A DNA stretch of 64,000 nucleotides from Haloferula helveola (lineage in GTDB: Bacteria; Verrucomicrobiota; Verrucomicrobiia; Verrucomicrobiales; Akkermansiaceae), in NCBI RefSeq assembly GCF_037076345.1, contig NZ_AP024702.1, forward strand, positions 3,968,001-4,032,000. The letters run 5' to 3'. Of the stretch, positions 5,594 through 55,973 are shown piece after piece. Under the pieces are notes generated by a model. The model saw only the letters and a program-made list of their open reading frames with translations. It made no database searches and was not told the DNA's origin. Within the stretch, counting starts at the first letter, position 1. Each line of letters starts with the position of its first letter. The position numbers and the translations under genes are program-made.

Positions 5594-8086
5594 ATGAACA
5601 GACAACTCCTCAAGTCGCTTGCGGCAGGTTCTTTGCTGCCCGTCATCGTTGAAGCGCAGACCACGGATTTCACCGATGGTGGGCACCTCTTCACGGATCC
5701 CGATCCGAACCCGACAACCGATTCGTTCATCAGCAACGTCGACAACTGGGATAACGGCCTGCCTGCCGGAGACACCAGTGGAACGATCACCATTGATGCG
5801 AAGTACAGCAGCAATGTGACGAAATCAAATTACCACATTGTTCAAACTGATGGGGAACTGAAGAGAGCTTCGGGCATCGGGGCGTTCGATTTGAGGAACA
5901 GCTCAAGCTATGTTCTGGATGGTACTGATGCCAAGACCTTCGGACGCGGGATTCGGCCATTCAACTCGATCTTTATTCTCAAGGATGGCCTGGCTGATTT
6001 GACCGAGAATAGTGCGGATACGGCCATTCCTGACCCCGAGGGCGGGGCCATTGTGATGTATGGCGGGGCGATGAACATCGGCAAACACTTCCTTGTCGGG
6101 GAAGGTGATCTGTTCATCTACGGCGGCTCCCTCTCCATCCCGAAAGACCTTGGAACAAGAAATTTCGATCCTGGCGGTGACCTGTACATCAACGGGGGCA
6201 CGGTCACGGCACAATATCTGACATTCGGCAGTTCAAGTTTGGACGTGATCTTCGGGGGAACCACAGCCGGAACCGTAACCGTTGAGAATTTTGGCGGAGG
6301 TCGACACAATCCGAACCATATCGACATTGATTACCTGCCCGGCACCGGAATGTCCTTGGCCCTGACGATCCCGGTTGAACAGGGAGGCCCGGACAACAAT
6401 AACAAACTGGGTTGGTGGAATTCCGGTGAGACGACTGGCCAAGAGTGGGCACAGGCGCTCTGGGAATCCGACCGCCTCAAGTACAACGGGCAAACTCAAA
6501 CCGACCTGGCCGGTCTTACCTGGGCGCAGGCCCAGACCGATTTGGGCGACGGGTCCTTCTTCGTGTTTGATTCCCCGTCAGATACGCTGTCGCTCACTAC
6601 CGGTGGCGGTGCAACGGTTTCCTCGGACTTCAAAGTATTGTTCATCGGCGACGACGCGGAAGGCGTTCCGTTCACTTCCAGCGTCAACAACTCCATCAAC
6701 TACAGGGTTTTCTTTGATGAGCCCGTGAATGCATCCACCATCGACACCGGGGACTTTGAGAATGCGGGCACGGCGACCATTTCGGTTGATAGCGTGACGG
6801 CCACCTCCGACCCTTCGATCTTCAAGGTCGCGGTCAGCACGAGCTCCGAGGGCACCGTGCAGCTTCAGGTCAAATCGACGAACGACATTCAGGATGCTTC
6901 GGGGAACGGCGTGGATCCGGACTCCAACATCACGGACTTCGATTCCATCATCGTCGACCTCACACCACCGTTGTTGGTTGATGTCGATCGCGTTGGCCAA
7001 GGCAGTGATCCGACCTCCATTGAGGTTGGTGATTCCCTGACTTTCGACTTCTACTTCGACGAGGCCATCGACTTCTCGACCATCGATATTGCCGATTTTG
7101 AGAATGGCGCAGCTCTTTCCCCGGCTGGCATCACTATCGATGATGTGGATAATGTGTTCAACCAGCCGGTCAGGGTGAGGGTAATCTATACCGCTACCTC
7201 ATCAGGCATCCTCACCCCAGGGATCTCACAGGGTGCTGTGATCGCCGATACCCAAGGAAACGAGGTGGACACCAGTGTCGCCATTCCAGGCGACTTCTCC
7301 GTCATCGTGGTCCCGGCCTGGGAAGATACCTACCCGCAGATTACCAATGAGACTGGCAGCGGAGCGACCGCACGGGCCGCGATCAATGACGGCGGCACCG
7401 CCTTCTACGTGGTGCTGGCAAACGACGCCGACGCGCCGACGTCGGCACAGGTCGTGGCCGGCACGGATTCCACCGATTCACCGGCCTTGGCCAGCGGCAG
7501 CATCGCCTTGGCCGCGACGGTCGAAGGAAGCGATGCGTTTTCCGGCCTCGCTGCCAACACGGACTACGATGTCTGGTTCGTCGCCCAGGACGACGACGCT
7601 TCCCCCAAGCTTCAGGAAGAGCCGGTTCTTGTCGAGCTCACCACCACAAGCGGCGGCGGTTCGCCCTATGAGACTTGGGCAACCGGAGGCGAACTCTTTG
7701 GCGATGACGAGAACGGCGACGGCATTTCGAACGGCCTTGCGTTCCTGCTCGGCGCTGCCAGCGCGACGGACGATGTCGCCGATCTGCTGCCTACCGTCAG
7801 CGAGAGCGGCGGTGATCTGGTGCTGACTTTCAGCATGCTCAACGCGGCCAGTCGTGGCGGCGCGAGCCTCTCGACCCAGCACAGCGGCGACCTGGGCGCC
7901 AGCGATGCCTGGGATGCGGCAGGCAACGAGGAAACCGTTCCCGAAACCTCGGGGACGGTTGGGGTCGTGACCTTCTCCGTTTCCGTGAATGCCGGCAACA
8001 GCAACCTCAACGACGTCGTGGCGACCATCCCGGGCTCCGAAGGGAGCGGTGGAAGTCTCTTCGGACGCCTCAGTGCCAGCGAGTAA
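5594..8086 (+). CDS. Secreted multi-domain protein with shared solenoid-like domain and Ig-like repeats
   Basis: 830 residues with signal peptide (cleavage near VEA-QT, about residue 22). Residues about 40-335 align by eye with residues about 890-1145 of the protein at 545-4471: both have a DNWDxGLP opening, Gly/Asn-rich short strands, a NxGxHxL segment, an FGGT/LGGT segment, a PGxxMSL segment and an L(K/T)YNGQ motif. Two Ig-like SwmB/SbsA-type domains follow (about 345-455 and 460-575), each with FDExxxxSTID motifs, then an FN3-like stretch and a C-terminal DENGDGISN segment ending in FGRLSASE. The tail resembles other verrucomicrobial secreted proteins and is not a PEP-CTERM motif. Codons in the first 1.7 kb are visibly more AT-rich than in the last 0.8 kb. 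Function unknown. Confidence 0.8.
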   Translation: MNRQLLKSLAAGSLLPVIVEAQTTDFTDGGHLFTDPDPNPTTDSFISNVDNWDNGLPAGDTSGTITIDAKYSSNVTKSNYHIVQTDGELKRASGIGAFDLRNSSSYVLDGTDAKTFGRGIRPFNSIFILKDGLADLTENSADTAIPDPEGGAIVMYGGAMNIGKHFLVGEGDLFIYGGSLSIPKDLGTRNFDPGGDLYINGGTVTAQYLTFGSSSLDVIFGGTTAGTVTVENFGGGRHNPNHIDIDYLPGTGMSLALTIPVEQGGPDNNNKLGWWNSGETTGQEWAQALWESDRLKYNGQTQTDLAGLTWAQAQTDLGDGSFFVFDSPSDTLSLTTGGGATVSSDFKVLFIGDDAEGVPFTSSVNNSINYRVFFDEPVNASTIDTGDFENAGTATISVDSVTATSDPSIFKVAVSTSSEGTVQLQVKSTNDIQDASGNGVDPDSNITDFDSIIVDLTPPLLVDVDRVGQGSDPTSIEVGDSLTFDFYFDEAIDFSTIDIADFENGAALSPAGITIDDVDNVFNQPVRVRVIYTATSSGILTPGISQGAVIADTQGNEVDTSVAIPGDFSVIVVPAWEDTYPQITNETGSGATARAAINDGGTAFYVVLANDADAPTSAQVVAGTDSTDSPALASGSIALAATVEGSDAFSGLAANTDYDVWFVAQDDDASPKLQEEPVLVELTTTSGGGSPYETWATGGELFGDDENGDGISNGLAFLLGAASATDDVADLLPTVSESGGDLVLTFSMLNAASRGGASLSTQHSGDLGASDAWDAAGNEETVPETSGTVGVVTFSVSVNAGNSNLNDVVATIPGSEGSGGSLFGRLSASE

Positions 8087-25507: not shown

Positions 25508-26347
25508 ATGCTTGGAAAGTCACGATTGCTGGTGAGGCTCGCCGCAGGGCCGGTCATGGTCATGGGGCTCGGTCTGGCGGAGGATACCTATCCGCTTCAG
25601 GAGCCGCCGGTGGAAACGCCGCTGGCGGTGGAAACGATTTCGGTCGCCAAGGGCGTGACCACGACCCGGACGGTCGACGGCAAGGTGATGCGGCACACGG
25701 CCGACGTCGTCCGCTGGCGGGAGTGGGACCGGACGTTCACCGACGACGCGCTGGGCGGGATCGTCCGCTACCGGATGAAACGGGACGAGATCGCGACCAA
25801 GGTGAATGGTGAGGAGTCGAAGACCGACGGGCCGCTGGCGGGCAAGATCGCCTTGGGTCGCAAGACGGGCGCAGGAAACCGGACCTTTTCGCTCAGCGAG
25901 AGGACCGCGGTGGGGGATCAGGTCGACGAACTGGTCGCGATGGCGTCGATCGAGAACCGCAACTGGCTGCCCAACCGCCACGTGAAGATCGGCGAGACCT
26001 GGGAGTTCACCCCGCAGTTCGTGCGGGCGGCGCTGCGCCGGGACGTGCCGAACTCGGTGGCGGTCGGTCTGGCGGAGTTGGTCGACGTGAAGAAGTTGCC
26101 GGACGGCAGCCGCGAGGCGCTTGTGAAACTGGTGATCCGCGGTGGCGGCGAAGCGGCCAAGGGACCGAACAACGTCGTGGGCGCAGAGGGGCTGATTTCC
26201 GGCAATCTGACGGTCAATCTGGAGCGTCCGGGAGAGCTCGTCCTTCGGCTCAACGGCACCCTCGTCAGCGAGGCGCAGGTCGGCGACGCCGACAGCATCG
26301 CCCGGGTTCCGATTACCCTCCGGTTCGAGTCGAAGCCGCTGAAATAG
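25508..26347 (+). CDS. Exported protein of unknown function
   Basis: 279 residues from the ATG at 25508. The open frame runs back through the tRNA gene to 25259, which cannot be coding, so the first ATG after the tRNA is used. An N-terminal hydrophobic stretch (LVRLAAGPVMVMGLGLA) looks like a signal peptide. The rest is beta-rich, with repeated Val/Thr strands and a conserved-looking segment NWLPNRHVKIGETWEFTP (about 155-175), reminiscent of secreted DUF proteins in which a two-part beta-sandwich follows the signal peptide. No catalytic motif. It is followed 68 bp later by the symporter gene. Confidence 0.7.
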   Translation: MLGKSRLLVRLAAGPVMVMGLGLAEDTYPLQEPPVETPLAVETISVAKGVTTTRTVDGKVMRHTADVVRWREWDRTFTDDALGGIVRYRMKRDEIATKVNGEESKTDGPLAGKIALGRKTGAGNRTFSLSERTAVGDQVDELVAMASIENRNWLPNRHVKIGETWEFTPQFVRAALRRDVPNSVAVGLAELVDVKKLPDGSREALVKLVIRGGGEAAKGPNNVVGAEGLISGNLTVNLERPGELVLRLNGTLVSEAQVGDADSIARVPITLRFESKPLK

Positions 26348-45161: not shown

Positions 45162-45218
45162 ATGAAACATACTCGATCACGTAAGTTTCAAAACTTCGTC
45201 TTTCCGCTTCTGCTGTGA
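45162..45218 (+). CDS. Short 18-codon ORF overlapping the next gene by GTGA
   Basis: ATG at 45162 opens an 18-residue frame (MKHTRSRKFQNFVFPLLL) that looks like the basic and hydrophobic start of a signal peptide. It ends in TGA at 45216-45218, overlapping the GTG start of the next gene. This could be a translationally coupled leader, or the true start of the next protein separated from it by a frameshift. I cannot tell which. Confidence 0.3.
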   Translation: MKHTRSRKFQNFVFPLLL

Positions 45219-46003
45219 ATGCCTCCTCCAAGATTGCTAGCCTCGCTCTCGCTCTGCTCATTGCGGAGCTTGATGCGGCGTCGCGGCTGGCTGATCGGGT
45301 TCAAGCTGCGCACACCGCCCTGCTTGAAGATCGGAGGGAAGCACTGCCTTCTTTGAGTGATCCCTTCGGTGTTCCGGCTCCCGCCCGGGTGGTTCTTGAA
45401 CACTCCAACGAGCGGTTTCGCCAGGTCGGCGCTTGGCGCGGCAACGTGGTCGCCACCGTCTTCTGGATCGGGGAAGAGCCGACGGTCAACAATCCCACGC
45501 CGAACCACGCGAGCGCCTGGGATCCGAATTGGGAGGCGAACTTCGGTGGTTACGACGATCCCCAGCGGCGCAACGGCCTCTTGCCGGCCGGTTTTGTTCC
45601 GAGGCTGAACCCTTTCTACATCGCCCTGCCCTACAACGACATCGGCTCCGACTGGCGCCATCGTCCCGAGGCCTCGGAAGTGATTCCTTGGTTCTGGCGC
45701 GACTATCGCGGCGAAGGCATTTCGGTTTGCAAGGGCCGCTGGATCGCGGTCCATCTCGACGGCAAGGTTTGCTACGCCCAATGGGAGGACGTCGGTCCGT
45801 TCCAAACCGACCACTGGCAGTATGTTTTCAACGGCGAGGAGCCGCGCGACAACCGTAATGGGGGAGCTGGCATCGATATCAGCCCTGCGGTGCGCGACTA
45901 CCTCGGAGTCCGGAGCGGCGAGCGCGTGCAATGGCGCTTCGTCGAAGCCCGCGACGTTCCACCCGGTCCTTGGAAAACTTGGACCGCCGCCCCGTCCCGT
46001 TGA
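45215..46003 (+). CDS. Exported double-psi-barrel-like (RlpA/3D-like) protein of unknown function
   Basis: 262 residues from the GTG at 45215; no Shine-Dalgarno is visible and the N-terminus is weak. The segment SLALALLIAEL may be part of a signal, see the short ORF just upstream. The conserved body runs from about residue 70: WIGEEPTVNNPTPNHASAWD, FGGYDDPQRRNGLLPAGFVPRLNPFYIALPYNDI, VCKGRWIAVHLDGKVCYAQWEDVGPF, AGIDISPAVRDYLGV, WRFV...VPPGPW. The pattern suggests a double-psi beta-barrel related to RlpA/3D domains, enzymes or binders acting on cell wall. First gene of a run of four exported proteins leading into the pseudopilin cassettes. Confidence 0.65.
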   Translation: MNASSKIASLALALLIAELDAASRLADRVQAAHTALLEDRREALPSLSDPFGVPAPARVVLEHSNERFRQVGAWRGNVVATVFWIGEEPTVNNPTPNHASAWDPNWEANFGGYDDPQRRNGLLPAGFVPRLNPFYIALPYNDIGSDWRHRPEASEVIPWFWRDYRGEGISVCKGRWIAVHLDGKVCYAQWEDVGPFQTDHWQYVFNGEEPRDNRNGGAGIDISPAVRDYLGVRSGERVQWRFVEARDVPPGPWKTWTAAPSR

Positions 46004-48799: not shown

Positions 48800-48842
48800 G
48801 GGGGGTGTCATGAATGACCTACTTTCCATCGGCACTCCCCCC
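48800..48842. terminator. Possible terminator between convergent genes
   Basis: GGGGGG (48800-48805) can pair with CCCCCC (48837-48842) with a long loop. A perfect palindrome CTGAGCTCAG (48791-48800) sits at the 5' side. It spans the gap between a + stop (48780) and a - stop (48819). There is no U-run, so this is weak. Confidence 0.3.
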
Positions 48843-49415
48843 TCCGGCCGGTTTGGACTCGATACGTTGCCGGAGATTGTCGTTCCGGTAGATCAGGGAG
48901 AACGTTGCCTGACGGGACTTCCGCAGAAGGTCCTCCACTTCGGTGAAGGCAAGCAGGAGGAAGAGGCCGCGTACCGGCTCACGGTGGAACGAGAGGGTAC
49001 GGGTGGTGAAACGGTCCTCGGTTTTCCGTTGCTGTTGATTGGCGGTGAGGGGGCCGAATTCCACGCCAAGTTTGCGTTTCATGGTGTTGAACTCCGCCTC
49101 AATCGCTTCAGCTCCCTTTCCGGGGTCACCGTAGTGAACGGTTACTTCGATCAGCTTCCCGTCGATGAACCTGGCCTCCACCGCCCGTGCCTCGGAATCG
49201 GGCAAGGGGGCGGCAGGCCGCTCGATCCGGAAGACTCTCAACTCGGGCGACTTCCCGGGCATGGTGATTTGGACGTCGAGTTCGTGGCGCCCGGCCCAGT
49301 CGAGGAGTTTGGTCGGAGAGTCACCCCACTTGAGCCCGAAAGGCGGCTCGAGGATGGCTTGGCCGTGGGCGATAGGCATCAGGAAAAGCCAGAACAGGAG
49401 AAGCGCTTTCGGCAT
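48819..49415 (-). CDS. Exported protein of unknown function on the opposite strand inside the pseudopilin region
   Basis: 198 residues from the ATG at 49415, which opens a signal peptide (MPKALLLFWLFLMPIAHGQA); the open frame continues upstream to 49907 only as an antisense shadow. The body starts PPFGLKWGDSPTKLLDWA and contains DGKLIEVTVHYGDPG and FGPLTANQQQRKTEDRFTTRTLSF, resembling the second half of the SHD1-domain protein at 59028-59780 (a similar CFGDNRKEVEQKL start and GKLHENW-type helix). It is divergent from the first GspI-like gene (9 bp between starts), and this is the point where the tandem block begins. Confidence 0.65.
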   Translation of the reverse strand: MPKALLLFWLFLMPIAHGQAILEPPFGLKWGDSPTKLLDWAGRHELDVQITMPGKSPELRVFRIERPAAPLPDSEARAVEARFIDGKLIEVTVHYGDPGKGAEAIEAEFNTMKRKLGVEFGPLTANQQQRKTEDRFTTRTLSFHREPVRGLFLLLAFTEVEDLLRKSRQATFSLIYRNDNLRQRIESKPAGGGSADGK

Positions 49416-49424
49416 GCGCGGAGC

Positions 49425-49910
49425 ATGCCCGCGGCGCGTCGCCGAAACAAGCGCGGTCGTGGCGGCTGGGTTCTGCTTGAGGCGACGTATGCGCTGACGT
49501 TCCTGACGGGGCTTTCGCTGATTTTGCTGAAGCTCGCGATGAACATCACGGCACCGCGGCAGTGGACGCTGCAGCAGACGGTCAGCGACGCGTATCTGAC
49601 CTATGAGAAGGCCTGGGCCCAGCGTCTTCCATATGCGGACCTCCTTGCTGTTGACTCGCCGTGGCCGGCGTATCCGGCGAAGTCCGAGGAGACGGTGGAA
49701 CTGGGCAAGCTGCCCGGCGGGGCTGCGGTGGAGGGCAAGGTGATCCGGACACGGATTCCGGATTCGATCAATTTTCCGGTGGATGGCGGATCGGGCACGA
49801 CGGTGACCAATCCTGCGGGGATGAAGGTGTGGAAGTTCCAGAGCCTGCTGGTCTACGAGATCGGCGGGCGTGACTACGTGAAGAGCCGGACCGTGATCCG
49901 ATCGCAATGA
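49425..49910 (+). CDS. GspI-like minor pseudopilin, cassette copy 1
   Basis: 161 residues from the ATG at 49425. A basic leader (MPAARRRNKRGRG) precedes the prepilin cleavage site G|WVLLEATYALTFLTGLSLILL. Glu lies at position +5 after the Gly and is followed by a 20-residue hydrophobic helix, as in type IV prepilins and T2SS pseudopilins. The rest is a small soluble domain (WTLQQTVSDAYLTYEKAWAQRLPY...). The order with the next two genes matches GspI-GspJ-GspK, the tip trimer of T2SS. It begins 9 bp from the opposite-strand gene start, so its promoter must overlap that gene. It differs from copy 2 by 11 bases, one amino-acid change (Arg/Cys). The function call is inference from architecture. 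Confidence 0.72.
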   Translation: MPAARRRNKRGRGGWVLLEATYALTFLTGLSLILLKLAMNITAPRQWTLQQTVSDAYLTYEKAWAQRLPYADLLAVDSPWPAYPAKSEETVELGKLPGGAAVEGKVIRTRIPDSINFPVDGGSGTTVTNPAGMKVWKFQSLLVYEIGGRDYVKSRTVIRSQ

Positions 49911-50623
49911 TGAGGACGACCCCGAAGACGCGCCGCCGGTGCGGTGGCTACACGCTGATGGAACTGTCGCTGGCGATGGCGGTGGGGATCCTTGTGGCGG
50001 GGATGTCGCTGATGCTCTTCAACCAGCAGATGGCGTTCATCCGGATCTTCCGGGCTCAGGACTTCCTGACGCGCGAGGCGCCGCTGATCAACAACTACGT
50101 GATCCGTGTGATCGGCACGGCGGAGAGCTACGCGCTGTACAAGGACATGGACTCGATGCGCAACGGCGACGGAGCGGTGCTCGAGCACGCGACGGTGCTG
50201 GTCCTGCGGTTCAAGGAGGCGGACGGAACGAAGCGGGCGTCGATCCTGTCGTTCGAGGATCCGGGGACGGGCAGCGGGCTCTACTACACGGTGATTCCCG
50301 ATAGCGGGGTGCTGGGCGCGCCCGACTGGGCGGTGAGCAAGCAGCCCGAGGCGGTGAAGTTCGCGGTGGAGCAGGGAGTGCTGCGGATGCGCCTGTCGGG
50401 ACCCAACGGCGAGGAGCTTGTGTATTCGGGAACCCAACAACTGTAACGGTCATGAAGAACTTGAAGATGGAATCGAAGCGCAAGCGCGCGCCGCGGGGCT
50501 ACGCGTCGTATGTGACGGTGCTGACGCTTGGGATCATCGTTTTGGTGATGCTGCTCAACAGCTACCGGACGTCGATCCGGGCGCACGCGGCGCAGAAGGA
50601 GGTCACGCTTCGCATCGACTATG
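49444..50623 (+). repeat. Tandem repeat block, copy 1 (GspI-like, GspJ-like, start of GspK-like)
   Basis: This 1180-bp block recurs at 52761-53940 with constant offset 3317 bp. I count about 18 differences (about 98.5% identity). They are clustered: eight lie within 49631-49677 and five within 50034-50085. The repeat ends sharply at the codon for the 57th residue of the third gene. Confidence 0.9.
49907..50446 (+). CDS. GspJ-like minor pseudopilin, cassette copy 1
   Basis: 179 residues; the start overlaps the previous stop by four bases (ATGA), a coupled pair. Prepilin motif G|YTLMELSLAMAVGILVAGM with Glu at +5, after a basic leader (MMRTTPKTRRRCG). The soluble part is a beta-rich domain with VLVLRFKEADGTKRASILSFEDPGTGSGLYYTVIP and VLRMRLSGPNGEELVYSG. 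Position and motif fit a GspJ-like subunit. Six bases differ from copy 2, causing one residue change (His/Asp in LE-H/D-ATVLVL). Confidence 0.72.
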   Translation: MMRTTPKTRRRCGGYTLMELSLAMAVGILVAGMSLMLFNQQMAFIRIFRAQDFLTREAPLINNYVIRVIGTAESYALYKDMDSMRNGDGAVLEHATVLVLRFKEADGTKRASILSFEDPGTGSGLYYTVIPDSGVLGAPDWAVSKQPEAVKFAVEQGVLRMRLSGPNGEELVYSGTQQL

Positions 50624-52620
50624 CCGACAAGGAGGATGAGATTCTCCGCGCGGTTGTGAATCTGACTCCGAACCGGGCAATCCGGGCAATGACGCATGAG
50701 TCGGACGCCACATCGGCGAGTCGCAACCCCCTGCGTTGGGGCAACATCTTTTCGGACGCCTTGGACCAAGTGAATGCCAGAGAGTCGGTGGCGACCGCAA
50801 TGCTCAACAATTTCGGGCTGCAGGACGCTCGGGTGGCGAATACCGGCGATACCGCGTTTCCCAACGTGAATGCCGTGTTCGACGCGATCGAGCCTGAGTC
50901 GGGATACGTCGCGCCGGGTATTGGCCGGAGTCTCGGCGCCGGATTTCCTGCCCCTCTTGAGACTGCCAATGTGGATATCATCAACGATGATCGGGTCTTT
51001 CCCATCATCAGCCGCCAAAAGATCTATGGTCCACTTGCCGCAGGCGAGGTGGGGCTTCCGGTGGATGAGTATCCCGAGTTCAATCTGATCTCATTTCCCG
51101 AGATCCGCTTCAGCTACACCGAGCCGGGCCAGCCCTTCGTTGCGAAGAGGAATTGGTGGGCCTTCAGCCTCGATTTGGCGGATGCCGACGATCATCTGAC
51201 CGGTTTGGATCGAATGGAGCGAGACTTCATCATCTCGATCTATGAGATCCCGTCGCAGCTTGCGATTTCCGCCGAAGCTTTCGCCATCCTGGGTCAACAC
51301 GAGGACGGGAGCATGTGGGAAAACGCCTCGGTCGAAGGGGCGGTTTTCGCGACCCGGGCAAAAGTCGAGGAGGGGATGGATTTGTCCCGGATTTCGGGGC
51401 GGCGAGGCCTTGAGTTCGGAGATGGAGTGAAAATCGACAGCAAGGCGGTCGCCAGTGATCCATTCGCTCCGGGGGTGAGGGAAAAGTTCGAAATCGATTA
51501 CGGCGAGTTCCTGCCGGTGTCTCTGGCTTCGGAAGCCGGACGTGCGGCATTTCTTCCGATTAACCGCGGTCCCGACTTCTTCGACCGGTACTCCCATAGC
51601 CCGGAAACCAACACGGTTTCTCCGACCACGTGGAACGATTACTCCGTGGGTGCGATGCAGTGTGCCATGAGGTTGGACGTCACCGAGGTCGCGGGTGAAT
51701 TCGACAAGACTCCTACCGAGTTGCGGTTCCAGTATTTCAAGGGAGGAACCCGGCAATCGGTTGATATCTCGTTGATTCCGGATCCGGCGACAGGACTGCC
51801 GCCCGGATACATCTACTGCTGCGACGAGGATGAGATGGTGAACTTTCCTTATCCGGTGGATGTAGCCTACGGCAAGAATGGCAGCTACTATTACGAGGAG
51901 GCCGTTGTCGGCGACATCACCTTCAACAACGCCCGCTTCGGCGACCCTCTTGTCGGAACGTTCAAGGCTGGTTATTTCAAGCCAAGTTTTCCGTGGAACG
52001 TGAGCCTTCTTCACGAGGAAAAATGGTGCATCGAGATCTACCCGGAACGATTCAAGAAGTTCCTTGAGCTGCTTGGGGGTGATTCGCTGGCGGTGAACCA
52101 CTCCGTGGCGGTGAATGTCGATCACCGTAGCAACGCAGACATAGCAAAGCCGTCGATTCCCTGCGCCGAACACGACTATGGCGTCATCCTAAAGGAATGC
52201 GCAGATCTGACGAGTTTCACCGAGGGATTCTCGCTGGTCACGAACCTGCGACTGTATATCGCAGATGACTTCAATACGGCTACGATACCCCCACCCGCTG
52301 GATCGGGGATACCGGATCCCTTCTATCCACCATCTTCGCTTTTTGCTCCCGAGAAACGTTATGGTGCCGAGACCAATCCCCTGAGGCTGAAAATCGGAGG
52401 TCAAGTGGGTAGTTTGGCAGGGGATACCGGCGAGTCCGGTCAAAAAGTCCATTTGCTGGATCTCAGAGACGCAACGGAGGCGGACATGGCCCATGATCGC
52501 ATTGAAGTCAATCTGACCCAGATCCGTCACCCGGAGGCCTTGCCACCGATCACGATGATGAACTGGCTGATCATGGTCGAGGAGCGGCGAGCTGAGTTCT
52601 ACGTGGCGCAAAGCCCTTAG
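50452..52620 (+). CDS. GspK-like large minor pseudopilin, variable body, copy 1
   Basis: 722 residues. A basic leader (MKNLKMESKRKRAPR) precedes G|YASYVTVLTLGIIVLVM, a prepilin-like helix lacking Glu at +5, as in GspK. The first 57 residues are identical to copy 2; from residue 58 the two proteins differ at about half of positions. The large body has strong conserved blocks also in copy 2: FPEIRFSYTEPGQPFVAKRNWWAF, SIYEIPSQLAISAEAF, RISGRRGLE, FLPVSLASEAGRAAFLPINRG, DVAYGKNGSYYYEE, NARFGDPLVGTFKAGYFKP and GFSLVTNLRLYIADDFN. No known ectodomain family recognised. This body may present a ligand at the filament tip. Codon third positions are more AT-rich than in the constant part. Confidence 0.72.
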   Translation: MKNLKMESKRKRAPRGYASYVTVLTLGIIVLVMLLNSYRTSIRAHAAQKEVTLRIDYADKEDEILRAVVNLTPNRAIRAMTHESDATSASRNPLRWGNIFSDALDQVNARESVATAMLNNFGLQDARVANTGDTAFPNVNAVFDAIEPESGYVAPGIGRSLGAGFPAPLETANVDIINDDRVFPIISRQKIYGPLAAGEVGLPVDEYPEFNLISFPEIRFSYTEPGQPFVAKRNWWAFSLDLADADDHLTGLDRMERDFIISIYEIPSQLAISAEAFAILGQHEDGSMWENASVEGAVFATRAKVEEGMDLSRISGRRGLEFGDGVKIDSKAVASDPFAPGVREKFEIDYGEFLPVSLASEAGRAAFLPINRGPDFFDRYSHSPETNTVSPTTWNDYSVGAMQCAMRLDVTEVAGEFDKTPTELRFQYFKGGTRQSVDISLIPDPATGLPPGYIYCCDEDEMVNFPYPVDVAYGKNGSYYYEEAVVGDITFNNARFGDPLVGTFKAGYFKPSFPWNVSLLHEEKWCIEIYPERFKKFLELLGGDSLAVNHSVAVNVDHRSNADIAKPSIPCAEHDYGVILKECADLTSFTEGFSLVTNLRLYIADDFNTATIPPPAGSGIPDPFYPPSSLFAPEKRYGAETNPLRLKIGGQVGSLAGDTGESGQKVHLLDLRDATEADMAHDRIEVNLTQIRHPEALPPITMMNWLIMVEERRAEFYVAQSP

Positions 52621-52684
52621 AATCAGCAAATCCCCGCGATCACGTGGGTTGTCATTTGGTGGGCTTTTGGTTAAGCTCCCTTAA

Positions 52685-53227
52685 ATGTTCAGCCTTCCGT
52701 CCCTCTCAGAATCTGCCCGTCGCACCCGACCGAGCAGCTTGAGGCGTCGTCGACGCCGTCGAAACAAGCGTGGTTGTGGCGGCTGGGTTCTGCTTGAGGC
52801 GACGTATGCGCTGACGTTCCTGACGGGGCTTTCGCTGATTCTGCTGAAGCTCGCGATGAACATCACGGCACCGCGGCAGTGGACGCTGCAGCAGACGGTC
52901 AGCGACGCGTATCTGACCTATGAGAAGGCCTGGGCCCAGCGTCTTCCGTATGCGGACCTGCTTGCGGTGGACTCGCCATGGCCCGCCTATCCCGCGAAGT
53001 CCGAGGAGACGGTGGAACTGGGCAAGCTGCCCGGCGGGGCTGCGGTGGAGGGCAAGGTGATCCGGACACGGATTCCGGATTCGATCAATTTTCCGGTGGA
53101 TGGCGGATCGGGCACGACGGTGACCAATCCTGCGGGGATGAAGGTGTGGAAGTTCCAGAGCCTGCTGGTCTACGAGATCGGCGGGCGTGACTACGTGAAG
53201 AGCCGGACCGTGATCCGATCGCAATGA
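52685..53227 (+). CDS. GspI-like minor pseudopilin, cassette copy 2
   Basis: 180 residues from the ATG at 52685 or 162 residues from the TTG at 52739; the second matches the leader length of copy 1 better. Long Arg run (RRRRRRRNKRGCG), then G|WVLLEATYALTFLTGLSLILL, with Glu at +5. The mature part is identical to copy 1 except for one Arg/Cys change before the cleavage site. A 64-bp gap follows the first GspK-like stop. No Shine-Dalgarno visible. Confidence 0.72.
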   Translation: MFSLPSLSESARRTRPSSLRRRRRRRNKRGCGGWVLLEATYALTFLTGLSLILLKLAMNITAPRQWTLQQTVSDAYLTYEKAWAQRLPYADLLAVDSPWPAYPAKSEETVELGKLPGGAAVEGKVIRTRIPDSINFPVDGGSGTTVTNPAGMKVWKFQSLLVYEIGGRDYVKSRTVIRSQ

Positions 53228-53940
53228 TGAGGACGACCCCGAAGACGCGCCGCCGGTGCGGTGGCTACACGCTGATGGAACTGTCGCTGGCGATGGCGGT
53301 GGGGATCCTTGTGGCGGGGATGTCGCTGATGCTCTTCAACCAGCAGATGGCATTCATCCGGATCTTCCGGGCGCAGGATTTCCTGACGCGCGAAGCCCCG
53401 CTGATCAACAACTACGTGATCCGTGTGATCGGCACGGCGGAGAGCTACGCGCTGTACAAGGACATGGACTCGATGCGCAACGGCGACGGAGCGGTGCTCG
53501 AGGACGCGACGGTGCTGGTCCTGCGGTTCAAGGAGGCGGACGGAACGAAGCGGGCGTCGATCCTGTCGTTCGAGGATCCGGGGACGGGCAGCGGGCTCTA
53601 CTACACGGTGATTCCCGATAGCGGGGTGCTGGGCGCGCCCGACTGGGCGGTGAGCAAGCAGCCCGAGGCGGTGAAGTTCGCGGTGGAGCAGGGAGTGCTG
53701 CGGATGCGCCTGTCGGGACCCAACGGCGAGGAGCTTGTGTATTCGGGAACCCAACAACTGTAACGGTCATGAAGAACTTGAAGATGGAATCGAAGCGCAA
53801 GCGCGCGCCGCGGGGCTACGCGTCGTATGTGACGGTGCTGACGCTTGGGATCATCGTTTTGGTGATGCTGCTCAACAGCTACCGGACGTCGATCCGGGCG
53901 CACGCTGCGCAGAAGGAGGTCACGCTTCGCATCGACTATG
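52761..53940 (+). repeat. Tandem repeat block, copy 2
   Basis: Second copy of the 1180-bp block (see 49444-50623). It starts inside the Arg-rich leader of the GspI-like gene and ends at base 53940 (GACTATG); beyond it the sequence shares no clear nucleotide match with copy 1. Clean ends at the same position in both copies. Confidence 0.9.
53224..53763 (+). CDS. GspJ-like minor pseudopilin, cassette copy 2
   Basis: 179 residues with the same coupled ATGA start and the same prepilin motif (G|YTLMELSLAMAVGILVAGM, Glu at +5) as copy 1. Only one residue differs (Asp instead of His in the LE-D-ATVLVL segment). The synonymous differences cluster around 53351-53402. Selection for near identity or recent gene conversion would explain this. 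Confidence 0.72.
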   Translation: MMRTTPKTRRRCGGYTLMELSLAMAVGILVAGMSLMLFNQQMAFIRIFRAQDFLTREAPLINNYVIRVIGTAESYALYKDMDSMRNGDGAVLEDATVLVLRFKEADGTKRASILSFEDPGTGSGLYYTVIPDSGVLGAPDWAVSKQPEAVKFAVEQGVLRMRLSGPNGEELVYSGTQQL

Positions 53941-55973
53941 ACTCGAAAGAGGAGGCTACCCTTCGTGCTATTGTTCCGATCGCCGCAAACCGAGCCATGC
54001 GATGCATGCAGCACCAGTCCGCAGCGGGCAACAATGACTATGAGCTTCGATGGCAGCGAATCTTCCGCGCGGCGATCGACGAGTCGAATTCCGCCTACGC
54101 GGTCGAGTCCGCGGTGTTGCGGGAGTTCGGATTGCAGGATGCGGTTGATGCGAATCCCGGCGACAAGCAGCTTTATGCGTCGGAGACCTTCCGCGCCTAC
54201 GACCGCGACAACCGTTACACGACGCCCGGTATCAATCAGGATTTCGGTCTGGGATTTCCAGTGCCACTGGAGAGTGTGAGCAGTCAGGTCAATGACTTGG
54301 ACCATACGTGGCCAATCATCAGCGATAAAAAGCATTATGGATCATTGGCTGCGGAGAAGGTTGGCGCCTCGGTTGAGGACTATCCGCAGTTCAATCTGAT
54401 TCCCTACCCCGAGATCCGCTTCGGCTATGCCGAGCCTGGAGAGATGTTTGTGGCAAAGCGCAATTGGTGGGCGTTCAAGATGAATCTCTCGGAACACCAC
54501 GACAACATTACCAAGCTCCGGAAGCGGACGAGGGAGTTTGTGTTTTCGATCTATGAGGTCCCCTCACAGCTCGGCATTTCGGCAGAAGCCTTCACGGTCC
54601 TGGGGCAATACGAAGATGGCACCGAGTGGCAGAACTTCACTATCCAGGGCGGGGTGTTCGCAAGTCGTGCAAGGATCGGATCGGGATTGAATCTCGATCG
54701 GATCTCGGGCCGGCACGGGCTGGAGATTGACGCCAATGCCACGTTTGGCGACGAGGCCGCGCCGGGTACGATCGAGAGTGGTAGTGACGGTGGCCTCACC
54801 GCCAATCCCTTTGCTCCGGGAGTTCGCGAGTCGTATGAGCTTGAGAACGGCGATTTCCTGCCGGTCTCTCTCGCCTCTGAGAGTGGTCGCGCTGCTTTCA
54901 TCCCCATCAACCGTGGAGTCGAATTCTTCGATCGATTTGCGCACAATCAGGAGACGCAGACGGTCTCTCCAACGACGTGGAACAACTATTCGGTCGGCGC
55001 CCTTCAGTGTGCAATGCATCTCGACATCACGGATGTGAAGGACGCGGACGACCCATACCCTTCGGAGCTTGAGTTCAGCTTCCTGAAGAACGGTTTGAGG
55101 CAAACGGTCGAAATCGGACTGGAAGAAGGCAACGACATAGGTCTTCCGCCCGGCTACATCTACATCGCGGACGAAAACGAGACCGTGTTCTTCGAGCAGC
55201 CTGTGGATGTCGCATATGGGAAGAACGGCAGCTACTACTTCGAAGAAGAGGTGGTTGGATCAGTCACGTTCGAGAATGCGCGATTCGGTGATCCCTTGGT
55301 CGGCACCTTCAAGGCCGGCTACTACCGCCCGAGTTATCCGTTCGAGGTGAAGATGCTCCATGATGCGAAGCCCTGCATCGAGGTCTACCCTGAGCGATTT
55401 CCTGATTTCCTCGCCCAGCTGGGCGCCGACTCAGTAGAGGTAAACCACTCTCTGTCGATCAACGTAGACTACCCTGGAAGCGCCTATTTGCAGAAGCCAT
55501 CTATTCCGTGCACCGAACTGGATTACGGAGTGATTCTAAAAGAATGCGGTGATTTGACTCCGTATCCGAAGGGTTTTTCGCTCGTCACCAATCTTCGGCT
55601 CTACATCGCGGATGACTTCAACGTGGCCGAGACGACTCCTCCTGCCGGGTCGGGAATCCCGACCCCCTATTATCCTCCCTGTTCGTTGTTTGCTCCCGAA
55701 AAGCGCTACGGGGCGGAAGACATCCCTTTCCGGCTGAAGCTGGGTGGTCAAATGGGTAGCTTGGCGGGCGGTGCTGACACCGGGACCGAATCAGTCCACC
55801 TCTTCGACCTGAAAACGGCGATGGAAGGTGATGTTGCCCACGATAAGATCGAGGTCAATCTCTCGCCGATCAAGCATCCGGCTGCCTTGCCTCCGATCTC
55901 GATGATGAACTGGCTCGTCGTGCTCGAGGAGCGGAGAAGCGAAATGTACACCGGTAAGGCGGCGGCGAATTGA
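53769..55973 (+). CDS. GspK-like large minor pseudopilin, variable body, copy 2
   Basis: 734 residues; the first 57 are identical to copy 1, then the sequence diverges (about half of residues shared). Conserved blocks remain in the same order: YPEIRFGYAEPGEMFVAKRNWWAF, RISGRHGLEI, FLPVSLASESGRAAFIPINRG, DVAYGKNGSYYFEE, NARFGDPLVGTFKAGYYRP, GFSLVTNLRLYIADDFN and MMNWLVVLEERRSEM. The copy has an insertion (about 12 residues) around residue 330 compared with copy 1. The stop is 6 bp from the convergent zinc-ribbon gene. Role as above: a second, different tip subunit. Confidence 0.72.
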   Translation: MKNLKMESKRKRAPRGYASYVTVLTLGIIVLVMLLNSYRTSIRAHAAQKEVTLRIDYDSKEEATLRAIVPIAANRAMRCMQHQSAAGNNDYELRWQRIFRAAIDESNSAYAVESAVLREFGLQDAVDANPGDKQLYASETFRAYDRDNRYTTPGINQDFGLGFPVPLESVSSQVNDLDHTWPIISDKKHYGSLAAEKVGASVEDYPQFNLIPYPEIRFGYAEPGEMFVAKRNWWAFKMNLSEHHDNITKLRKRTREFVFSIYEVPSQLGISAEAFTVLGQYEDGTEWQNFTIQGGVFASRARIGSGLNLDRISGRHGLEIDANATFGDEAAPGTIESGSDGGLTANPFAPGVRESYELENGDFLPVSLASESGRAAFIPINRGVEFFDRFAHNQETQTVSPTTWNNYSVGALQCAMHLDITDVKDADDPYPSELEFSFLKNGLRQTVEIGLEEGNDIGLPPGYIYIADENETVFFEQPVDVAYGKNGSYYFEEEVVGSVTFENARFGDPLVGTFKAGYYRPSYPFEVKMLHDAKPCIEVYPERFPDFLAQLGADSVEVNHSLSINVDYPGSAYLQKPSIPCTELDYGVILKECGDLTPYPKGFSLVTNLRLYIADDFNVAETTPPAGSGIPTPYYPPCSLFAPEKRYGAEDIPFRLKLGGQMGSLAGGADTGTESVHLFDLKTAMEGDVAHDKIEVNLSPIKHPAALPPISMMNWLVVLEERRSEMYTGKAAAN

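Follow-up and report, generated by a model that had tools for sequence, protein, structure and literature searches.

Why does the genome of Haloferula helveola carry the same three minor-pilin-like genes twice, side by side? The two I-J-K trios occupy nucleotides 49425–52620 and 52685–55973 of the window (the whole 64,000-nt stretch analysed, from contig NZ_AP024702.1) and repeat with a period of 3317 bp. All six genes are on the forward strand. The first copy consists of I1, a GspI-like minor pilin (49425..49910, 161 amino acids (aa)), J1, a GspJ-like minor pilin (49907..50446, 179 aa), and K1, a large pilin in the GspK position (50452..52620, 722 aa). The second consists of I2 (52685..53227, 180 aa), J2 (53224..53763, 179 aa) and K2, again a large GspK-position pilin (53769..55973, 734 aa). 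The genes are three consecutive prepilins with class III leaders. The leaders of I (G/WVLLEA) and J (G/YTLMEL) contain Glu+5, and the leader of K (G/YASYVT) does not. An original prediction, made from the sequence alone, had described this tandem with its period, its Glu+5 pattern and its two large K subunits, and all of these hold.

The leader motifs of I, J and K are kept in relatives. Because the whole trio is kept across the order and the same tandem is present in two other species (G013 and G014), the tandem trio is not a product of chance. An assembly artefact is unlikely, since the 5.68-Mb genome is one contig and the tandem recurs in two draft assemblies. Pfam and NCBIfam scans of I, J and K returned nothing useful: there was only a weak N_methyl match in J (Pfam, E 0.0018, under the family cut-off), and no T2SSK Pfam match for K. 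Searches of PDB sequences with the I and J profiles gave no significant match. No paper on these cassettes was found in the open-licence literature.

The two copies are not equally similar along their length, an asymmetry that is absent from the original prediction. A tract of ~1.19 kb, covering I, J and codons 1–57 of K (49437..50625 in copy 1 and 52754..53942 in copy 2, both on the forward strand), is ~98% identical in DNA between the copies, whereas the remaining K protein is ~60% identical. At third codon positions, the anchor segment (I, J and K to codon 57) is 96.2% identical between the copies in this genome (G000) and 98.9% in G013, against 39.7% and 50.2%, respectively, in the K ectodomain. 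The phylogenies of the two segments in the three species differ in the same way. In the anchor-segment tree, both copies group within each genome (bootstrap values of 100, 100 and 96), whereas in the K-ectodomain tree the grouping is by position, first copies with first copies and second with second. The clade of second-position ectodomains has a support of 100, and the single-copy genome G016 is placed inside it. When each segment was tested against the opposite grouping, the approximately unbiased test rejected it both times (p 1.7e-19 and 3.6e-7). Site likelihoods flip sign within ~60 nt at about K codon 57, a position within the long N-terminal (anchor) helix or close to its end.

These facts indicate an old duplication under concerted evolution: gene conversion has occurred repeatedly in I, J and the K anchor, and the K ectodomains have stayed distinct. 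G014 shows only old or weak homogenisation. A recent simple duplication is rejected because K1 and K2 are each more similar to their orthologues in other species than the two are to each other within one genome. Purifying selection alone is rejected as the cause of the I/J identity because the third codon positions are 96–99% identical between the copies (G000 and G013). Selection for interchangeable I and J might lie behind the homogenisation. The GC content at third codon positions is 76–90% in the tract and 67–73% in the flanking genes and the K ectodomains. The third positions of I and J are ~74% identical to those of G013, and those of the flanking genes 36–55%. The tract looks like either an import from a relative with high GC or the product of GC-biased conversion.

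What machine do these pilins belong to? The original prediction reported no gspD, gspE, gspF or gspG in the window, which is true but misleading: a machine cluster begins 258 bp past the last base of the window (locus L067, 4032258–4047670 of the genome), 8.3 kb from K2. It encodes a PilT-like ATPase, a pilin, a PilM-like 628-aa protein, a secretin, a PilB-like ATPase, a PilC/GspF-like protein and a second pilin. The PilM-like protein is named by its position and co-occurrence, and has no Pfam match. The best scores of the secretin, the ATPases and the PilC-like protein are to PilQ, PilB, PilT and GspF models, all under the curated cut-offs; the secretin reaches 55.8 bits, while the cut-off for the Amuc_1098 family (NF042912) is 750. 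Because the recognisable components score under the cut-offs for GspE/GspD/GspF as well as for PilB/PilQ/PilT, the machine is best classified as a divergent filament system, neither a canonical type II secretion system (T2SS) nor a canonical type IVa pilus (T4aP). A prepilin peptidase match of 29.1 bits is located away from the machine, at 25561. The genome thus contains a secretin, an assembly ATPase, a PilC/GspF component and a prepilin peptidase, and the core of this set is linked to the trio. The original prediction would have failed in a genome without any pilus or T2SS machinery, and L067 excludes this.

In nine other loci (L042, L044, L045, L046, L048, L075, L077, L080 and L091), the trio, or K with its secreted partners P1–P3 (described below), directly adjoins the machine. 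The PilT-like ATPase belongs to the machine in most loci. The K profile is found in 62 of the 144 genomes of the order, as is the PilM-like protein, and 61 genomes have both (Fisher p 1e-38, uncorrected for shared ancestry). One genus of the same family lacks both K and the PilM-like protein. From this linkage and co-occurrence, the trio can be assigned to this machine with high confidence.

The machine is encoded once, but its K cassettes vary from one to five per genome. The PilM-like gene is single except for one possible case, G148, where a second copy is in fragments. G030 has five K loci on four contigs (L079–L083), four of them with I-J, together with one PilM-like gene; this is the richest repertoire of putative tips found here. 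L045, L046 and L048 contain one I-J and two K; every K there comes with a P1-P2-P3 set, so the partners are duplicated along with K. In G137 (L091), the order is I-J-K-K, with K alone duplicated. I-J-K is present twice in G013, G014, G040 and G094; the two cassettes, each P3-I-J-K, share a contig in G040 and are on separate contigs in G094. The multiplied element is always K, and I-J may be shared. Among the comparative findings, this multiplication of K over one machine speaks most strongly for alternative tips. The originally proposed exchangeable or dual tips are thus supported by one machine with one to five cassettes and by the duplication of K alone or with partners; the exchange itself is a step that we infer.

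Structure prediction adds two likenesses. The J2 model (predicted local distance difference test (pLDDT) 71) matched XcpW (Z 10.2 and 10.1), EpsJ (9.2) and GspJ of enterotoxigenic Escherichia coli (8.7) in VIA-align, with unrelated rows at 4.2 or below. J is therefore predicted to have the GspJ/XcpW fold; J1 differs from the modelled J2 at one residue. The other likeness is a module resembling rhamnose-binding lectins at residues 449–512 of K1 (51796..51987) and 459–522 of K2 (55143..55334), both on the forward strand. The better modelled part, residues 461–522 of K2, matched SUL-I with Z 6.2 (2.4 A, 27% identity over 59 residues). The K2 module also matched CSL3 (Z 5.8) and the latrophilin lectin domain (4.6–4.9), and unrelated rows did not exceed 3.3. 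All Z scores of the module are under 8. Plain Foldseek against PDB gave no significant match for the J or K models, and both likenesses were recovered only by the second look with VIA-align.

The sequence points in the same direction. With a profile of 18 modules against 177,635 PDB sequences, the top two matches were SUL-I (E 3.2e-6) and CSL3 (E 0.011). The motifs YG and FGDPxxGTxK are common to the K module and SUEL-type lectins. In the rhamnose-binding lectin (RBL) domain of latrophilin, rhamnose is contacted by Glu42, Tyr63, Gly117 and Lys120 (PMC2430599). Matched by motif, their counterparts in K2 could be Glu469, Tyr483, Gly512 and Lys515. Among the 18 modules, which were selected without visibly degenerate ones, E11 and G54 are kept in at least 90%, and Y25 and K57 are invariant. 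In more distant relatives, the K match is interrupted between about residues 440 and 522, and little sequence fills the gap. This break indicates that the module is an insertion: an existing K would have gained it in the lineage that includes this genus and its neighbours, unless other lineages have lost it. The module is also seen in other proteins. In the L085 protein (5776–7329), the module occurs twice, after Ricin-B lectin domains and before a C-terminal metalloprotease-like HExxH stretch. In L096 (1–2325, reverse strand), it is found in an alpha-L-rhamnosidase-like protein (PF17389, E 3e-31) from another class; here the halves are in reverse order, second before first, an order that hints at tandem or permuted modules. 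Both contexts would fit carbohydrate binding. A phylum-wide match in G172 is in a multicopper-oxidase-like protein and was judged spurious.

Taken together, we consider it reasonably probable that the two trios encode alternative forms of the tip complex on a single type IV filament that depends on a secretin, with K caps that recognise glycans. I and J would form a shared base that primes filament assembly and carries K at the end. K1 or K2, which have separate large ectodomains with the lectin-like module inserted, would be mounted on the common I-J base as alternative caps. The filament, built by the machine that is encoded once, would pass through the secretin, and the PilT-like ATPase may retract it. 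As K carries a lectin-like module, the tip probably recognises glycans; the ligands of the module could be, for example, polysaccharides from algae or plants, from biofilm or from other cells. It can also be speculated, more tentatively and at somewhat less than an even chance, that the base and the cap anchor are kept interchangeable by gene conversion, perhaps following import from a relative, while the cap ectodomains, with their module of the animal rhamnose-binding-lectin type, diversify into different tips for glycan recognition on one single-copy machine.

Several points weigh against this picture. The conversion boundary may just mark the end of similarity between the copies. Most relatives have a single K. 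The K2 model has a pLDDT of 52, so that only the module at 461–522 is interpretable and a GspK core is not established, nor is a GspI fold of I; of the originally proposed GspI-J-K tip trimer, then, the J fold, the gene order and the linkage to the machine stand, and the folds of the other two subunits do not yet. The module is short, ~64 residues against ~95 in classical rhamnose-binding lectins, and has no Pfam match. Its match to PDB sequences depends mainly on the FGDPxxGTxK loop. The conserved cysteine pairs of classical rhamnose-binding lectins, and with them the classical disulphides, are absent, and the module is for this reason called only lectin-like here and not a classical rhamnose-binding lectin. 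In G009 and G015, the modules are degenerate and the site is lost, and Gln stands in place of the Glu in L044, L045b and L046b, which include some second K copies. With 78% identity between K1 and K2, the module belongs to the better conserved parts of K, and a difference in their specificity might have to lie outside it. Finally, the location at the tip, the interchange of K1 and K2, the exposure of the filament, its retraction and the binding of sugar are all points that we infer.

The main rival is a role in periplasmic secretion. Here, the pilins would form a type II-like pseudopilus, the K1 and K2 tips would select different substrates, and the module would hold glycan-active enzymes or glycans during export. 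The I-J-K order and the GspJ fold are T2SS-like, the PilC-like component scores best to GspF, and the conserved secreted proteins P1–P3 travel with K. However, a T2SS does not include a PilT-like ATPase, and one is part of the machine in most loci. The secretin and the ATPase score best to PilQ and PilB, and a lectin-like module fits an exposed tip better, so we consider the periplasmic role unlikely. It is even less probable that the tandem is redundant, kept by recombination or for dosage, with K1 and K2 doing the same job. Homogenisation of I, J and the anchor would be expected in that case too, the similarity of the two modules agrees with it, and one K suffices in most relatives. Against it, K1 and K2 have remained distinct across the split of the three species, each resembling its orthologue more than the K beside it, and K alone, or K with P1–P3, has been multiplied in other lineages.

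The remaining doubt concerns the module itself, which might be a structural spacer that has only the loop motif in common with rhamnose-binding lectins and is no lectin. Its shortness, the missing cysteine pairs and the degenerate copies speak for a spacer, as do the motif-driven profile match and the Z scores under 8. Yet structure and sequence independently indicate the same family, the contact positions are kept in most copies, and the same module occurs in a Ricin-B protein and a rhamnosidase-like protein. A spacer is accordingly doubtful, although slightly less so than the periplasmic role.

The genes around the cassettes are also conserved. Upstream of I1, on the forward strand, are O262 (45215..46003), a conserved secreted protein whose gene heads the cluster, and the conserved secreted partners P1 (46294..47145), P2 (47168..47764) and P3 (47761..48780). 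None of these four secreted-looking proteins has a family match, Pfam and NCBIfam scans of P1–P3 having been unproductive, and PDB sequence searches gave no significant match for O262, P3 or a small protein of the machine. A conserved antisense gene (48819..49415, reverse strand) lies between P3 and I1. Its start codon is 9 bp from the start of I1, and this layout, an unusual interrupted operon, is seen in most relatives. In L091 (3109–4587), an ATPase of the ABC (ATP-binding cassette) type and a permease-like protein (a homologue of e255) lie between K and the PilT-like gene, and e255 is kept beside K in many genomes. Promoter and terminator scans gave nothing exceeding expectation. The trios are not a Verru_Chthon cassette, as the family model TIGR02600 was not matched. 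This genome has at least nine partial matches to TIGR02600 (Verru_Chthon_A) outside the window (e.g., at 268129 and 391497 of contig G000:C1), covering only approximately the first 60 model positions, in open reading frames of ~1170–1250 aa in those listed. Verru_Chthon_A is a separate multi-copy family of pseudopilin-like proteins.

If the proposed tip complex is correct, the trios are the tip cassette of a type IV filament that is widespread in Verrucomicrobiales and has apparently not been characterised. A single genome in which two different K caps come with almost the same I-J base would be a natural experiment on tip exchange. These bacteria are known as polysaccharide degraders, and rhamnose- or galactose-like glycans can be proposed as the ligand class of the pilus tip. 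The rhamnose-binding lectin fold is known mainly from animals, and the module would be a cysteine-free bacterial relative of it.

The closest counterparts of the trio are GspI-GspJ-GspK of the T2SS and PilV-PilW-PilX of T4aP. In GspIJK and PilVWX, the I/J-type subunits prime assembly and carry the K-type subunit at the end (PMC9934059). The trio shares with these the I-J-K order, the class III leaders, the lack of Glu+5 in K, the predicted GspJ fold of J and the linkage to a secretin, an ATPase and a GspF/PilC component. It differs in that K is 722–734 aa long and has a lectin-like insertion, the trio is present twice, there is no family match at the sequence level, and the machine scores under the T2SS and T4aP cut-offs. 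In the Kil pilus of Myxococcus, a Tad pilus, the Tip1–4 KilLMN minor-pilin trimers are interchangeable (PMC12075869). In both systems, one pilus machine is served by a number of paralogous minor-pilin trimers whose cap subunit is large and variable. The Kil pilins are TadE/F/G-like and encoded at separate loci, while the trios here are GspIJK-like, in tandem, with homogenised I/J and a PilQ/PilB-like machine. PilC of Streptococcus sanguinis is a modular minor pilin with a lectin module, proposed to be at the tip (PMC9934059), and resembles K as a pilin with an added, here putative, glycan-binding module. In PilC, a ConA-like lectin is at the C terminus in a monoderm pilus, whereas the SUEL/rhamnose-binding-lectin-like module lies mid-protein in a GspK-position K. 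The module resembles SUEL-type lectins (CSL3 and SUL-I) and latrophilin RBL in its predicted fold and shares with them motifs and counterparts of the contact residues (PMC2430599); it is the shorter (~64 against ~95 residues), bacterial, without cysteine pairs, and its binding is predicted only. The Amuc_1098 system of Akkermansia is also a verrucomicrobial secretin-dependent pilus system (PMC4960237), from which the secretin here is set apart by its 55.8 bits against 750. Since interchangeable minor-pilin tips (Kil) and lectin-bearing minor pilins (PilC) are already known, the trios are a variation on a known theme. They differ from these in that the trimer is of the GspIJK type and belongs to a divergent verrucomicrobial system with a secretin, that K has a rhamnose-binding-lectin-like module inserted, and that the base evolves in concert while the caps diverge.

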